Position numbers and translations under genes: made by a program. This document shows, piece after piece, positions 3,330-18,325 of a DNA stretch of 22,258 nucleotides (position 1 is the first letter of the stretch; every line of letters begins with the position of its first letter). The notes under the pieces were generated by a model, which was given only the letters and a program-made list of their open reading frames with translations, was not told the DNA's origin and did no database searches. Source of the stretch: a virus; the IMG/VR virus record IMGVR_UViG_3300048912_000040, positions 1 to 22,258 of that record. One strand, 5' to 3'.

Positions 3330-4355
3330 CTATGGCGTATAAGTGACGATAATCACGCCGTTACCGCCGGCACCGCCGTTGCCAAATCCGGGCGAGCCGC
3401 CCCCGTTCGCGCCGCCACCGCCGCCGCCGCCGCCGTAGTTGCCGCCGTTGCCGCCATTACCAGCCGCCGAGCCGCTTCCGGCGCCACTGCCGCCACCGCC
3501 ACCGCCTCCAGGGCCTGCCGGCGCGCTGTCGGAGGTCTGCGTCCAGATCACGCCGGCACCGCCCGTGCCGCCCGGCTGCGGCGTCCCCGAGCCGGCAAAG
3601 CTGCCGCCGCCACCGCCGCCACCCGAGCCATGACTTCCATTGCCGCCAGCGGTCGGCGACGTGGTGCTGCCAGTGCCGCCCGTGCCGCCGGCCGTGCCGT
3701 CCTGCGCCACACCGCCCGCGCCGCCGCCTGATGCATCCTGCGCTGCTGCCGCCGTCCCAGCCGAACCATCCGACGCGCCGCCGCCCGCGCCGGACCAGAA
3801 ATTGCCGCCCGTGCCACTCGCCCCGACTTTGCCCGCTCCATGCGGACCGCCCGCGCCGCCGCCACCGCCGGCCGAACCGGATCCCGCGCCGTCACCGCCA
3901 TTACCGCCGCTCGCCGCTCCCGTGGTCGGTGTACAAGACGCCGACGCACCGCCGACGCCGTTGACGCCGCTTGAGCCGCCGGCACCCGCGCCGCCGCCTT
4001 TCGCGATGCAAACGCCGCTGTTGAAATTCGTATCGGTGCCAGCCGTGCCGGACGAGTTAAGGGATGTGGCACCGGTGCCGCCTTGGCCGATGCTGATTGT
4101 AATGCTCGCCCCTGGCGTGAGCGTTATATTGCTGATTGTCGCGTAAGCGCCGCCGCCACCACCACCGGAGGACCACAAGCCCGTCCCGCCAGATCCGCCA
4201 CCACCGCCGCCGCCGATGCACTCGATCTTGTTGTTGGCGTTGTTCCAATCCATCGGCACCGTCCATGTGGTGCCGCTGGTTAGAAAGATCGTACCGCCAC
4301 CGCCGCCACCGCCACCTCCGCCGCCACCGGTCGCCGCGGCGCTGCGCCGTGACAT
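3330..4355 (-). CDS. Glycine-rich tail adhesin candidate
   Basis: 341 aa from the ATG at 4355 (MSRRSAAAT then 12 glycines). A TTG 48 nt upstream would overlap the previous gene and is less likely. After the glycine run come TTWTVPMDWNNANNKIECIGGGG and AYATISNITLTPGASITISIGQGG, the hallmark of Gly_rich_2-type phage domains, then a very long Gly/Ala/Ser region with FWSGAGGGAS, and the end GGNGVIIVTYTP, a typical closing strand. Such domains are known to fold into polyglycine-II bundles in T4-like gp38 adhesins. Role in receptor binding is inferred. It is the last gene before a terminator. Confidence 0.83.
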   Translation of the reverse strand: MSRRSAAATGGGGGGGGGGGGTIFLTSGTTWTVPMDWNNANNKIECIGGGGGGGSGGTGLWSSGGGGGGAYATISNITLTPGASITISIGQGGTGATSLNSSGTAGTDTNFNSGVCIAKGGGAGAGGSSGVNGVGGASASCTPTTGAASGGNGGDGAGSGSAGGGGGAGGPHGAGKVGASGTGGNFWSGAGGGASDGSAGTAAAAQDASGGGAGGVAQDGTAGGTGGTGSTTSPTAGGNGSHGSGGGGGGGSFAGSGTPQPGGTGGAGVIWTQTSDSAPAGPGGGGGGGSGAGSGSAAGNGGNGGNYGGGGGGGGANGGGSPGFGNGGAGGNGVIIVTYTP

Positions 4356-4365
4356 CAATTGAGGA

Positions 4366-5061
4366 CTAAACAGCACGAGCTTGCCAGCCCCGCGCCTTGG
4401 CAATGATGGTGGTCGAGTTCGCGCTAGGCGTGAATGCTTCGACCGCCTGAAACTGAATGTAGAGCGTTTTTGCGCCCGATGTTGGTTTCGTCACCACAAA
4501 CGCGCCGGCCGCCGAGTTGTTGGTTTCGTTAAAGGTTGGCACCAGCCGTCCGACCGCACCATCGGAAAAGCCAGATTCCATCCAGCCCATAAACGAACCG
4601 ATATAGCCCGCCTTCTTCTGGCTATAAGCGGCGTTATCGCCGGCCCCGACGCCGGACGAAGTGGTCGGATCGCTGTTGAACAGATAGGCCCGAAGCTTCT
4701 TGCCGCCGAGCCCGGTGTCCGTGGAGCTGATCAGAATTTCGCTGATAAAAATCGGGTCGTCGTTGGTATCTGACACCGTGGCCGATAGCGCTGTCACTGA
4801 TCCCGCCGTCGCATTATCGGAAATCGAATCGCCAGCGGCATAAGCCGTTATGTTAGCCGGTCGCGTCAAGGTCGAGAACGTCGCCACAAATGCGAGGTTG
4901 GAAAGCCCCTTGGTAAAGATCGAGCCGCCGCCCGATCCATCGGCCACCACCTGCCCGAACGAAAAAGGCCCGCTGCCGGCGCCGCTCTCGTCCCATGCGC
5001 GCATCGTGCGGGTGGTGCCGCCCCCGTCCTTGATGGATAACGTCGACCAAGACCCGGCCAT
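4366..5061 (-). CDS. Tail-associated protein, unknown
   Basis: 231 aa. Begins AGSWSTLSIKDGGGTTRTMRAWDESGAGSGPFSF, a beta-rich opening like those of phage tail proteins encoded before glycine-rich or fibre genes, though I cannot name the family. The middle is Ser/Thr/Ala/Gly-rich; the C-terminal half (KTLYIQFQAVEAF through TTIIAKARGW) looks like a beta sandwich. No catalytic motif. Located between the tip and the Gly-rich adhesin candidate, so it may be an upper baseplate or fibre attachment protein. It starts directly after the 62-aa gene. Confidence 0.72.
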   Translation of the reverse strand: MAGSWSTLSIKDGGGTTRTMRAWDESGAGSGPFSFGQVVADGSGGGSIFTKGLSNLAFVATFSTLTRPANITAYAAGDSISDNATAGSVTALSATVSDTNDDPIFISEILISSTDTGLGGKKLRAYLFNSDPTTSSGVGAGDNAAYSQKKAGYIGSFMGWMESGFSDGAVGRLVPTFNETNNSAAGAFVVTKPTSGAKTLYIQFQAVEAFTPSANSTTIIAKARGWQARAV

Positions 5062-14105: not shown

Positions 14106-14564
14106 TCAGCCGATCTGGTCGAATGTCAGTTCAATCTCTGCAATGGCGCAGAGATAATTATTCACCTCTGACGAGAGGCCGGGCGGCGACAGGTTCGAAC
14201 CTGGGCCAACCGGGACGACATCGGCGGAAAAAACCGAGATGTCGGCATCTCGAAAACTTCTAAGAGCGGCGGCAACGGTTTCCGCCGTGTCCATCACCGG
14301 CCCCATGCCAACCGCGCCGGTTGGCGGCGAGAACACATAGGCTTCAAGCGTTGCACGGTTGCGATAGATGTTCGCCCCGCGCCCGCCGCCATAGGCGACA
14401 GGTGAACCGCCCGAGCCGCTATTATTGAATACGAAATAGACAAAGGTCGTCGGCGTATCCGGCAGAATGGGCGGGTCATCCCCGTGCCAATACAAAGGCA
14501 CAGAAAGGCCCGCCGCCTCGATCCGTGAACGGATGGCGTCCAGCGCGTCGGCTGCGGTCGTCAT
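14106..14564 (-). CDS. Tail terminator / tail completion protein candidate
   Basis: 152 aa, ATG start 32 nt after the lectin-like gene. Begins TTAADALDAIRSRIEAAGL, a helical opening typical of tail terminators, followed by beta strands (PTTFVYFVFNNSG, ANIYRNRATLEAYVFSP), a helix (DTAETVAAALRSFRDADI) and a final strand pair (NNYLCAIAEIELTFDQ). This alternation and size, and the location immediately before the tail-tube gene, fit a lambda gpU / DUF4128-like terminator capping the tail tube. No decisive motif; position is the main argument. Confidence 0.68.
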   Translation of the reverse strand: MTTAADALDAIRSRIEAAGLSVPLYWHGDDPPILPDTPTTFVYFVFNNSGSGGSPVAYGGGRGANIYRNRATLEAYVFSPPTGAVGMGPVMDTAETVAAALRSFRDADISVFSADVVPVGPGSNLSPPGLSSEVNNYLCAIAEIELTFDQIG

Positions 14565-14596: not shown

Positions 14597-15652
14597 TCAT
14601 GCGAGCGTGATCCCGTAATAGGTCGCGATGTTTTGTCTAATCGCAGTCCTGTCAGATGAGGACAGCACCGCAGGGAATATATAAAATTCAAGAATTTGCC
14701 CCTGCAACCCAAACCCGCCAGATGATGGATCGTCACATCCCAGAACCAAGGGAAGATTTATAGCGCCCACATTGCCATCGCCGTAGATGTAGTCGGAATT
14801 TTTTGTTAGGACCGCGCCGTTAGCTTTGAGGTCAGCCGAGGAGTCGTTCCAAGCCGTGTCGAACAGGTAATAAGTCCCAGCGTCCGGGCTTAGTGTGTAT
14901 CGCCCCCCATTGCCTGAGTTAAACGACTCGCCGTCAGCGCCAGCCTCCAAACCGATGCCACTCCCAAGAAATTCCAGCCAGAGATCGGGGCCATCTGGGA
15001 ATCCGATATCCTGCCCATTTATGCCTGCTATGCGGCCGCCGCCGCTTGCTACCGTTTCCACTTTCGCAAGAGCAAAAATCGTGAATGCGCTATTGGGTAG
15101 CGATATATTATTAGTCACCAAAAACAACGAACCATCAAATGAAAGCCCCGGCTTCCCGTTGGATGTCGAAGCCACCCAAGCTGGCTGGGACAGTGCGGTT
15201 GATTGGGATGCATCAAGCCCATTTCCGCTTTGATCGTTCCAGATAGCAACAAAAGGATTGGCACCGCCAAGGAATGTATTTATGCCGCTAATGTCGAGAT
15301 CGCCTGTTAACGTGTCACTCGAAAAACTCTGCTCGGCATCATCGCTATCTCGCCTGATTGTAAGCACAGGGGAGCCAGCCATAGCAGACGAGAGAGCCCG
15401 CCCACCAAACGCGGCGGCGGCCGTTACCGTTGTTAAATCCAGCGGACCTACATAGTCCCCCCCACCACCGCCGCCGCCACCCGACGAAACGTTGACCACT
15501 CCTGAATTATTCCAAAGCTGCCCCCCCAAACCTGGATCAGCGGTCGGAAGCGCAGCAATTATTTTTGCCCCGCTTTCAACGACGATCTGACCGCCCGAGG
15601 CGATAACCAGCACGTCGCCGTCGCTCATGTAAATTGTGGTTTGATTTGTCAT
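14597..15652 (-). CDS. Lectin-like protein with GH54/concanavalin-type domain and capsid-region docking module
   Basis: 351 aa. Residues 11-58 repeat the module of the 62-aa protein encoded after the capsid gene. A linker of eight glycines (58-65) follows, then a beta-sandwich candidate from about 70 to 351. That part carries SPVLTIRRDSDDAEQSF (93-110) and FVAIWNDQSGNGLDASQ (134-150), close to the N-terminal signature of GH54 alpha-L-arabinofuranosidase B domains (RxSDD then YDQSGNGNHxTQ), and later features of concanavalin/LamG folds. Catalytic residues were not verified, so binding is likelier than hydrolysis. It sits among head-neck genes (ATGA with the head-closure gene), not with tail fibres, which suggests display on the head or neck. 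Could alternatively be a tail-side adhesin encoded out of order. Confidence 0.75.
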   Translation of the reverse strand: MTNQTTIYMSDGDVLVIASGGQIVVESGAKIIAALPTADPGLGGQLWNNSGVVNVSSGGGGGGGGDYVGPLDLTTVTAAAAFGGRALSSAMAGSPVLTIRRDSDDAEQSFSSDTLTGDLDISGINTFLGGANPFVAIWNDQSGNGLDASQSTALSQPAWVASTSNGKPGLSFDGSLFLVTNNISLPNSAFTIFALAKVETVASGGGRIAGINGQDIGFPDGPDLWLEFLGSGIGLEAGADGESFNSGNGGRYTLSPDAGTYYLFDTAWNDSSADLKANGAVLTKNSDYIYGDGNVGAINLPLVLGCDDPSSGGFGLQGQILEFYIFPAVLSSSDRTAIRQNIATYYGITLA

Positions 15653-15996
15653 CCGCTAACCTGAATATCTAGAGCGATCAGCGTCCCGCCGATTCGGCGC
15701 GTGTTGTCGTCAACCGACTTTATCGCCAGTTCCCGGCCGCGAACGACAAGTTTGTCGTTGGTCGTGATCGGCAATAGCGAGGAAACATCTTCCGCCATCG
15801 CAATTACCCTGCGATCACCCTGCACAATTGAGCCAACGAGCTCGCTCGGCTTGTAGCCCATGACGCGGGCTTTTGCAGTCACGTCAGTCTTTGGCCGCGG
15901 CGTGCCAGATCCGGTGAAGCGGCGGAAAACAACATCCTCGCCCACTTCATCAATCATTGCGCGATGGCTGGCGTGCAGATCGATCAGCGTAGTCAT
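15649..15996 (-). CDS. Head-closure / head-tail joining protein (stopper candidate)
   Basis: 115 aa from the ATG at 15996, chosen because it makes an ATGA overlap with the connector stop; an alternative start lies four codons upstream. Seen: DEVGEDVVFRRFTGSG, a middle KARVMGYKPSELVGSIVQGDRR, and the C-terminal beta segment TNDKLVVRGRELAIKSVDD. This size and pattern (small beta-barrel, GEDVVFRR motif near the N-terminus) fit head-closure or joining proteins encoded after gp6-type connectors. Assignment rests on pattern and position. ATGA overlap with the next gene. Confidence 0.75.
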   Translation of the reverse strand: MTTLIDLHASHRAMIDEVGEDVVFRRFTGSGTPRPKTDVTAKARVMGYKPSELVGSIVQGDRRVIAMAEDVSSLLPITTNDKLVVRGRELAIKSVDDNTRRIGGTLIALDIQVSG

Positions 15997-16616
15997 GCCA
16001 ACGCCCAACTGCGGAAGTTTTCCAGCAGGCTAGCGACGGTATCGTTCAATGATTTATCCAGCGCCCCGGTGGCCTCTATCTCAACAGAGCCGACACCTTC
16101 GACAACCCTCTTCCTTACCATCTGGCTCGGCCCGCCGAACACAAACAAGCGGCCGATGCGCAGAAGCATGGCGGACACAAGTTCGGACGGGACGGTCGCA
16201 TACCCGGCCACGGCAATAATCGTAATGCGCGAACCGACCTGCGTCGTGGGCCAAACTTGGTTGTATTTGAGGACGATTGACGGGGCGAGGCCCTCTAAGC
16301 GGGCTTCATACACCGCCGCATCAAGCGCCTGCGTAACACCGTCAACGTCAACGTATGAAATCGATGTGACGGACTGGATCGGAGAAACCGGAAGTCGCTT
16401 GAATTCGGAAAAGCTATCGCACTTCATAGACACGGTTTGCGTGACGATCTTGATGTCGCAATAGCGCTCGACAAAGCCGCGCTCTGCCAGGATCATGCGT
16501 GTAATCATGTCGTCATAGCTGGTGTCAGCCGTCGCAATCCCGCACTGCTGCTTGACCTGCGCCGCAGTCACCGGCTCAGACGCGGGCGCTACCGTAACAG
16601 TCGCGGGATACCACAT
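15993..16616 (-). CDS. Head-tail connector, HK97 gp6-like
   Basis: 207 aa. Forms the adaptor ring below the portal. Seen: the opening VTVAPASEPVTAAQVKQQCGI, then a helix (YDDMITRMILAERGFVERYCDI) and the beta segment LPVSPIQSVTSISYVDVDG, a well-known signature of the Phage_gp6-like connector family. The C-terminal part VPSELVSAMLLRIGRLFVFGG is the expected second helical segment. Length is somewhat above minimal family members. Coupled to its neighbours by TAATG upstream and ATGA downstream. Confidence 0.87.
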   Translation of the reverse strand: MWYPATVTVAPASEPVTAAQVKQQCGIATADTSYDDMITRMILAERGFVERYCDIKIVTQTVSMKCDSFSEFKRLPVSPIQSVTSISYVDVDGVTQALDAAVYEARLEGLAPSIVLKYNQVWPTTQVGSRITIIAVAGYATVPSELVSAMLLRIGRLFVFGGPSQMVRKRVVEGVGSVEIEATGALDKSLNDTVASLLENFRSWALA

Positions 16617-16810
16617 TAGCGGCGGCTTTTCTGCTTGCGCGTCTCGATCGCCGGAAAGGCAACCGCCCGCTCGATCTGACGTTCAGCCACCGGCAACGCG
16701 AACCCCGCGCCGATCAGGCGCAAAGCCTCATCCTGCGGGAAATCGCGCTTGTCGCCCGGTTCTAAGGAAAATGCCGGCCCCGAAAGGCCGACAGTCATTT
16801 CAATTAGCAT
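16616..16810 (-). CDS. Small conserved phage head-neck protein, function unknown
   Basis: 64 aa starting at MLIEMT. The start is set by a TAATG overlap with the upstream 62-aa gene; a longer in-frame reading starting further upstream overlaps that gene and looks spurious. The pattern FSLEPGDKRDFPQDEALRLIGAGFALPV followed by a basic tail resembles small proteins commonly found between capsid and connector genes, in which a short beta strand precedes a D/E-A-x-RLI-x-AGFA helix. No catalytic motif is visible. TAATG overlap with the connector gene. Likely an assembly or structural accessory. Confidence 0.75.
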   Translation of the reverse strand: MLIEMTVGLSGPAFSLEPGDKRDFPQDEALRLIGAGFALPVAERQIERAVAFPAIETRKQKSRR

Positions 16811-16998
16811 TAGCCGGCCGAGACGGTCACGACACCCGCATTGCTCCACAACTGACCCACAACGTGGGGGTCTGCGGTGGGCAGCGTTGCGACAAGTATA
16901 CCGCCGGACTCGACGGTAATCTGACCGCCAGAAGCAACGACCAATTCGTCGCCGCCGACCTTTTTGTAAACTTTGGATTGGTAAGTGGCATCAACCAT
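16810..16998 (-). CDS. Small head-associated protein, candidate decoration or docking module
   Basis: 62 aa, ATG with GGAG about 8 nt upstream (GGAGCCTGAACA). I do not recognise a named family with certainty. Residues 15-62 (GGDELVVASGGQ through PTADPHVVGQLW to VVTVSAG) are about two-thirds identical by hand count (32 of 48) to residues 11-58 of the 351-aa lectin-like protein encoded at 14597-15652. No signal peptide or TM segment; the composition suggests all beta. The slot directly after the capsid gene is where phages often encode decoration proteins, so a capsid-binding role is plausible. It also resembles short C-terminal modules I have seen on phage structural proteins. TAATG junction with the next gene. 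Confidence 0.75.
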   Translation of the reverse strand: MVDATYQSKVYKKVGGDELVVASGGQITVESGGILVATLPTADPHVVGQLWSNAGVVTVSAG

Positions 16999-17028
16999 TG
17001 TTCAGGCTCCGTATGAGGAAATAGAGGA

Positions 17029-17044
17029 GGCGGGATAACCCGCC
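17029..17044 (-). other. GC-rich hairpin after the capsid gene
   Basis: Perfect 6-bp stem GGCGGG with loop TTAT and CCCGCC on the minus strand, just after the capsid stop. Flanking GAGG and CCTC can extend it with a bulge. There is no downstream T-run, so it is not a standard intrinsic terminator. It could be a 3'-end stabiliser or RNase processing structure for the capsid message. Confidence 0.5.
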
Positions 17045-17059
17045 CCCTCGTTGTTTGCT

Positions 17060-18325
17060 TTAAGCCTGGATGAGATGCTTGACGGCCGCGGTATCCACCA
17101 GCTCACCGTCGAAACGGATCAGGCCAGCAATACCGAGATCGGGCCAGAAACGCTCACGCATGACGCCGATGACCGGGCTGCCAACCTTGCGAACCCAATA
17201 CTTTCCGAAGTCGCCGAAGATCATGGTCTTGTTGCCGGTGGCAAGCGAAGCCATCGCCTGGTTGATGGAGTAGTTATAGCCAAGCAGCGAGCCGGGGGCG
17301 CCCTGCTGTATATTGCCCATCTGCCAGATGTACTGACCGTTGCCGTCCTTCAGCTTGCGGATGGCCTTCAGGGTCGAGTCATTGAACATGAACCGAACCT
17401 TGGGACCAGTGCGGTAGGCCGGGTCAACCGAGTGGACGAGATCAAGGATTTCGTCCACCGTGACCGCAGCAACCGCGGCGGCAGTCTTACCGAGAGTCGA
17501 GGCAGTCACAACGCCCATCGGCGCCGAGGAGCCCGATCCCGTGGTAAGCTGGGTGTTCGCGGTGCGGCCGAGACGCTCGCCGAGCAGCGAACCAAGCAGA
17601 GATTCGATGTTGAAAATCGAATCCTGATTGAGTTCCGTGCTCCACTTGACGAACTCGGTGTCGAACACGTAAGCGTCGAGGCGCTTCTGACCGAACACAG
17701 CGTCTTCCGAACCGTCGTCGGTGAGCGCGGTGCCTTCCGTGTGGGCACCGGCCGACTTGGACGTGTCGTTAATGGTCGGAATGTTGATCTGGTTACCCGA
17801 GGAGGTCAGCATTTCCTGGGAAACACCGGGATCGTACATCGGGCCATAGGCCAGCATCGAGCGGACGATCTCGTTGGCGAGATCAACCGGGACGGTGTAG
17901 CCGCCAGCCGTGGTGGTGCCGGCGGACTGGATGCGGAATTCCGCGTCGCCCTTCTTCACAACGCCCGCGCGCAGAACGGAACGTTCCTCGGCGGAAAGTT
18001 CGGCCACGTCGCCGCCGGCACGAAGCATCTTGTAGAACACTTCGCGATATTCGGGCTTCTCGGCATCGGCAACGCCGCGGGCCTCGCCATCCGGGCTGGT
18101 CGGGCGCTGTGCACGGCTGATCTCAACGGCACGCTTCTCCAGCGCAGCAATCTTCTCCTCGCGCTCGATCTGCTTTTCAAGCCGATCATGCTCGGCCATG
18201 GCGGCGTCGTGGGCGGTTTCCAGTTCCTTGGCGCGGGCTTCGTCAGCGGTGCCGATCTGGTCGAGACGTTCGCGGGCTTCGGCGATGATTTTCGCCTGCT
18301 TCTCCCGCATTTCTTTGATGGTCAT
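17060..18325 (-). CDS. HK97-fold major capsid protein
   Basis: 421 aa. Builds the icosahedral head. Residues 1-75 are strongly charged and heptad-like (Glu/Lys/Arg/Ala rich), the expected delta-domain coiled coil that acts as built-in scaffold and is cut by the protease encoded upstream. The body follows, with the N-arm segment YREVFYKMLRAGG (93-105), SAGTTTAGGYTVPVDLANEI at 134-153, a P-loop or E-loop region, and the C-terminal A-domain. Length is typical for precursor capsid proteins of this fold. The exact cleavage site cannot be read off. Strong SD, and RNA hairpins on both sides of the gene. Confidence 0.95.
   Translation of the reverse strand: MTIKEMREKQAKIIAEARERLDQIGTADEARAKELETAHDAAMAEHDRLEKQIEREEKIAALEKRAVEISRAQRPTSPDGEARGVADAEKPEYREVFYKMLRAGGDVAELSAEERSVLRAGVVKKGDAEFRIQSAGTTTAGGYTVPVDLANEIVRSMLAYGPMYDPGVSQEMLTSSGNQINIPTINDTSKSAGAHTEGTALTDDGSEDAVFGQKRLDAYVFDTEFVKWSTELNQDSIFNIESLLGSLLGERLGRTANTQLTTGSGSSAPMGVVTASTLGKTAAAVAAVTVDEILDLVHSVDPAYRTGPKVRFMFNDSTLKAIRKLKDGNGQYIWQMGNIQQGAPGSLLGYNYSINQAMASLATGNKTMIFGDFGKYWVRKVGSPVIGVMRERFWPDLGIAGLIRFDGELVDTAAVKHLIQA

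Follow-up and report, generated by a model that had tools for sequence, protein, structure and literature searches.

The locus described here lies in a viral DNA of 22,258 nucleotides (IMG/VR record IMGVR_UViG_3300048912_000040), which was analyzed as a whole and is referred to below as the window. Two of its open reading frames, encoding proteins of 62 (P0003) and 351 (P0002) amino acids, are of particular interest; both are on the minus strand, as are all other window features for which coordinates are given. In order of transcription, the genes encode terminase, portal, protease, HK97-type capsid, the 62-aa protein, a 77-aa conserved protein, head-tail adaptor, head closure protein Hc1, the 351-aa protein and a putative tail terminator, followed by tail tube, chaperone, tape measure and tail-tip genes. 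Terminase, portal and protease were assigned by reading the open reading frames, without a family scan. The major capsid gene (17060..18325; PF05065, E 3e-52; phrog_10) is separated by 61 bp from the start of the 62-aa gene (16810..16998; phrog_12102, E 1.5e-5), which is the first gene past it and sits in the head block. Within this gap is a GC-rich, terminator-like hairpin of 11 bp (17024..17049), recognized by pattern match only, which could possibly lower expression downstream of the capsid gene. The 77-aa head-block protein (16616..16849) also occurs at the same position or nearby in three other loci (L034, L130 and L131), and is followed by a gp6-like head-tail adaptor (15993..16616; phrog_442, E 1.5e-26) and Hc1 (15649..16008; phrog_161, E 9.5e-8). 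The 351-aa gene (14597..15652), whose ATG overlaps the Hc1 stop codon, lies 1.4 kb downstream of the capsid gene and hence inside the neck block, where it is flanked on its other side by the putative tail terminator (14106..14564), assigned by position and without a family match. Among the tail-end genes, a Gly-rich protein (3330-4403; PF21722, E 2.6e-6) is a possible further adhesin.

The two proteins share most of the shorter one. An ungapped alignment of residues 15-62 (62-aa protein) with residues 11-58 (351-aa protein) has 32 identities in 48 positions, the very count made by hand in the original prediction; the Smith-Waterman score is 172 against 31.9 +/- 5.2 in 2000 shuffles (z = 26.7). 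Identity amounts to 15/24 in the first half of this alignment and 17/24 in the second. When small gaps are allowed, the match runs from residue 1 to 62 of the short protein and from 1 to 58 of the long one, with 36 identical positions over 58 residues; as homology reaches both N-termini, nearly the entire 62-aa protein has been duplicated. The DNA of the module copies is identical at 92/144 positions. Third codon positions agree in only 18/48 codons and dS is saturated, from which it follows that the duplication is old. The proposed duplication of a module within the head-neck block is thereby confirmed, as is the run of eight glycines described after it, except that the module itself ends with the first of these (G58), leaving a linker of residues 59-65 (15458..15478).

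The 48-residue module is in fact composed of two elements, here termed half A and half B. Half A spans residues 1-38 of the 62-aa protein (16885..16998) and, in degenerate form, residues 1-34 of the 351-aa protein (15551..15652). It is the N-terminal signature of phrog_12102, a largely uncharacterized family, with the consensus YxxKVYxKxGGDExVVASGGxIxVESGG at the N-terminus. Much of its strongest conservation resides in the N-terminal segment and not in the repeat. While the 62-aa protein matches 18 of the 19 conserved family columns, the 351-aa protein matches 10/19, the lowest value among 75 half-A sequences. Its losses cluster in the N-terminal YxxKVYxKxGGDE, and the ASGGQI..VESG core together with half B is kept. 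An improved half-A profile confirmed 147 relatives in one scan, 80 of which were kept. In every one of these relatives half A is N-terminal, and the part that follows it ranges from about 30 to more than 300 residues and comprises helices, beta-domains or tailspike-like beta-helices; for instance, the tip is tailspike-like in L265 (phrog_2234, 1.1e-5) and a beta-helix in L255. Searched against the PDB, the half-A profile returned chance matches only.

The genomic setting of half A is equally constant. An HK97-type capsid gene lies less than 3 kb upstream in 67/67 testable half-A open reading frames, and within 1.2 kb in 59 of them, testable being those with more than 2.2 kb of upstream sequence (67 out of 76 distinct ones). 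The capsid profile was built partly from half-A loci, though it was half A and not the capsid by which those loci were chosen; among loci chosen for the lectin domain discussed below, this profile matched in just 3/78. A constant N-terminus and a variable C-terminus beside a capsid gene are what would be expected of a virion-anchored head fibre. Between the capsid and half-A genes there is usually a gene for a protein of 140-150 aa (PHROG 5707; e.g. L034:5519-5944), which is absent from the window. This protein is a candidate decoration protein; in the PDB it (~144 aa) found only efflux-pump matches, apparently by chance, and no known decoration protein.

Five distinct half-A open reading frames (L020/L048, L030/L050, L049, L268 and L285) begin with a signal-peptide-like hydrophobic stretch, such that half A would begin at the N-terminus of the mature form. 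Taken at face value, such starts could mean that half-A proteins are exported to work at the surface of the cell, superinfection exclusion being one example, instead of being virion parts. We consider this very unlikely, given that some 70 of 75 half-A sequences, including the two in the window, have no such start, that the genes lie inside the head morphogenesis block and that some phages carry tailspike-like tips. All the same, signal-peptide-like starts would not be expected of proteins that join capsids in the cytoplasm, and they count against the virion-borne role favored below.

Half B, with the motif LPTADP..GQLW.., occupies residues 39-62 of the 62-aa protein (LPTADPHVVGQLWSNAGVVTVSAG; 16813..16884) and residues 35-58 of the 351-aa protein (15479..15550). 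It was found in at least 531 places in IMG/VR and is a C-terminal cap: in 67 of 68 distinct proteins it ends no more than 5 residues from the C-terminus. The single exception, and thus the sole internal copy, is that of the 351-aa protein, in which 295 residues follow. Half B occurs in small proteins directly 3' of capsid genes of phrog_371 (~31 loci) and phrog_283 (L005, L094), as well as two genes past a phrog_334 capsid gene (L058). It also occurs in a protein encoded after a major tail protein (L016), and it forms the end of a T4-like phage protein and of a pectin-lyase-fold protein from a Vibrio phage. Since its hosts include proteins encoded away from the capsid gene, half B is a general cap for proteins of the virion type; it is frequently, though not invariably, found near the capsid gene and is not specific to it. 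Against the PDB, the half-B profile gave chance matches only, and a literature search for the half-B string returned no relevant paper containing it. A further instance is the 54-aa gp08 of Sphingomonas phage MMDA13; the main text of the published paper on this phage reports no virion mass spectrometry. Collagen-like (GPTGPT) proteins whose genes follow portal-like genes also end in half B (L013, L014, L019, L021, L022, L080 and L106), sometimes with two such genes in a row. At L113:3648-4775, the place taken by the capsid gene in related contigs is occupied by a homing endonuclease gene (phrog_314), immediately ahead of a half-B gene.

The breadth of half B, which caps collagen-like, pectin-lyase-fold and T4-like phage proteins alike, raises the question of whether the whole module is simply a generic fibre element, namely a beta-structured trimerization shaft and its cap, devoid of any docking role and linked to capsid genes merely by inherited gene order. 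Several half-A relatives indeed carry repeated SGGxIxVESGG units reminiscent of fibre repeats. Against this stand the occurrence of half A only beside capsid genes (67/67) and the placement of its strongest conservation largely at the N-terminus as opposed to the repeat, and we therefore hold this explanation to be unlikely.

The combination of A and B is not confined to this phage. In L124 and L263, the capsid gene is immediately followed by one for a stand-alone A+B protein. In the Ancylobacter prophage L131 such a gene comes 0.5 kb past the capsid gene, and between Hc1 and the tail genes this prophage carries no lectin gene. In a five-row tree, the branch leading to P0003 is short (0.09) and that leading to P0002 long (0.86). 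Together with the existence of stand-alone forms elsewhere and the lack of a lectin gene in L131, this suggests that the short form is probably ancestral and the lectin form derived. P0003 is about as close to the L124 protein (67% identity) as to P0002 (60%), and a tree of five short sequences does not place these three in a definite order; the copy may have been made within this genome or may have come from a close relative. Single-sequence PDB searches gave chance matches only, and so did a fold search with the AlphaFold model of the 62-aa monomer, which found no PDB match.

These relatives bear on the proposal, made in the original prediction, that the module docks the lectin on the head. 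In its most literal form, both proteins would bind one class of sites on the capsid lattice, most of them decorated by the 62-aa protein and a minority carrying the 351-aa protein with its lectin. The constant-N, variable-C design of the capsid-linked half A, the A+B proteins directly 3' of capsid genes and the near-complete set of conserved columns in the 62-aa protein all speak for such a scheme. Against it, the most conserved N-terminal motif is gone from the long copy, half B lacks specificity for capsids and the 351-aa gene sits among neck genes; same-site docking is accordingly possible, though we would not bet on it. In other words, the docking idea gains from the linkage of half A to capsid genes in all 67 testable cases and from A+B proteins encoded behind the capsid gene of three further phages or prophages, and loses from the wide distribution of half B and the decayed motif of the long copy. 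The linkage thus supports docking of the 62-aa family, and less strongly that of the 351-aa copy.

What the long copy carries is a domain of its own. Residues 66-351 (14600..15457) are predicted to form a ConA-type beta-sandwich (phrog_10356, E 3e-18) related to GH54 arabinofuranosidase B. The lectin-domain profile matches GH54 with E 8e-12, a match limited to GH54 residues 16-88, outside the catalytic region. AlphaFold modeled most of residues 71-160 and 321-351 with pLDDT >90, and a Foldseek search with this model retrieved GH54 (6sxt, E 1.4e-12) as the best match, as well as the tailspike of cyanopodophage Pan3 (1.1e-8). The lectin-like nature originally ascribed to the remainder of the protein is thereby upheld by profile, predicted structure and fold comparison. 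The module was modeled at low confidence in the 351-aa protein, and as the 62-aa monomer its model had no PDB match. The 351-aa protein ends without an extra C-terminal domain. Phase variation through the G tract of its gene was considered and dropped, as frameshifts would truncate the protein and no variant was seen.

The lectin domain has more than 500 viral relatives, in none of which, as far as they were examined, does the A+B module stand in front. The A+B-lectin combination was seen nowhere else among the sequences examined, although its parts are of known kinds; it comes from a single virus, as a 41-kb contig that also carries it is 100% identical in every compared piece and hence not independent. 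Elsewhere the domain is fused to Hc1 (L149:3756-5834, whose alignment with the phrog_10356 profile extends across both the Hc1 and the lectin portion) or to the tail terminator (L151:2377-4083 and L160:2951-4570), and in L172/L178 its gene stands between those for terminator and tail tube. Related domains are found within tail genes in phages of Gordonia and Arthrobacter. The fusions in L149, L151 and L160 suggest that this domain has been recruited repeatedly to the phage neck. One viral contig (L201:1113-6086) bears three consecutive lectin-domain genes.

Such recruitment makes display at the neck at least as plausible as the head placement first envisaged. The 351-aa protein could be a fibre at the head-tail junction, held by Hc1, the terminator or portal-proximal capsid contacts, with the module serving as an oligomerizing stalk only. 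This would fit a gene set between Hc1 and the putative terminator, the neck-associated relatives of its lectin domain, a half A that has decayed in its anchor motif and retained its core and half B, and the precedent of carbohydrate-binding modules in lactococcal neck passage structures (PMC6669499). Gene order is nonetheless a weak guide to position, and the relatives of the module are linked to capsid genes, not neck genes, so that we grant a neck location a substantial chance, if somewhat short of even. It should be borne in mind that same-site docking and neck display are mainly versions of the account that follows, differing in location, and that the likelihoods attached to them are not to be added up.

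Taken together, it seems fairly probable that the 351-aa protein is a virion-borne adhesin of the head or neck, in which a duplicated stalk of the head-fibre type displays a glycan-binding domain. The 62-aa protein, made up of half A and the cap, half B, would be a minimal form within a family of short, capsid-gene-linked proteins of the head-fibre or decoration type. Its gene, or that of a close relative, would have been copied into the neck gene block; there, the copy would have lost its stop codon and acquired a GH54-related domain of the ConA type, joined through a glycine linker. In the resulting protein, A+B may form a stalk, short, rich in beta structure and probably oligomeric, on the head or at the head-tail neck, from which the flexible linker would present the lectin domain to host-surface polysaccharide for reversible first attachment. 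A point against this account is that the long copy, with the most divergent half A, may not bind the site used by the 62-aa protein; the low-confidence model of its module, the lack of a PDB match for the 62-aa monomer and the occurrence of the fusion in just one virus count against it as well. The decayed motif, the position of the gene and the neck fusions of the lectin domain elsewhere favor the neck, or else an altered site, and a role as stalk for the module.

A broader reading, which is rather doubtful at present, is that half A is a general docking tag for the capsid or portal vertex that bears interchangeable tips throughout a large and almost unstudied group of environmental phages and prophages; the tip-less and lectin-tipped copies in this virus would then share or divide sites, yielding a head or neck adhesin independent of the tail. 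The partners of the module elsewhere, which the original prediction had advised looking for, form a clear pattern: half A is followed by swappable tips, half B is terminal in all but one of its proteins, and a repeat spotted by hand has resolved into three families that can be tested, namely half A, half B and the ConA-type domain. Half A emerges as a capsid-gene-linked N-terminal element with 147 relatives and only one annotated phage among them. If it does dock on capsids, it would serve as a small natural tag by which domains could be displayed on phage heads, and would account for the gain of head or neck adhesins by some phages. The unique lectin fusion amounts to a natural experiment in adding such an adhesin, and this virus probably has an additional adhesive arm close to the head or neck.

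Several known systems share parts of this design. Among annotated phages, half A is clear only in gp35 of Azospirillum phage Cd (PHROG 12102; deposited as two records), which is likewise encoded in the gene block after the capsid gene, but ends in a short, probably helical tail and has neither half B nor a lectin. The virion structural proteins of PHROG 10356 have the ConA/GH54-like domain (E 3e-18), yet none of those examined has an A+B module in front of it. GH54 alpha-L-arabinofuranosidase B (1wd3, 6sxt) has the same fold and N-terminal sequence motif, whereas the 351-aa protein lacks its arabinose-binding C-terminal domain and matches it in sequence only over the short GH54 segment given above. 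Lactococcal neck passage structure proteins are located at the head-tail junction and combine a constant N-terminus with variable C-terminal carbohydrate-binding modules (PMC6669499); with 500-900 aa, a BppU-like N-terminus and a coiled coil, they differ from the 351-aa protein, and the likeness is one of design. The head spike fibre Rcc01080 of RcGTA is N-terminally anchored, flexible and capsule-binding (PMC7296036, PMC10218006). Like the protein proposed here, it is a capsid-linked adhesin with a short N-terminal anchor, a flexible connection and a beta-rich, sugar-binding body, and RcGTA is of alphaproteobacterial origin, as are several hosts of half-A relatives. It differs in requiring a separate pentameric base protein and in its anchor, IALGLGLGL; in this phage the candidate anchor is A+B, which also exists as a stand-alone copy. 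As the RcGTA spikes and the lactococcal neck passage proteins illustrate, an adhesin at the head and one at the neck are both workable arrangements.
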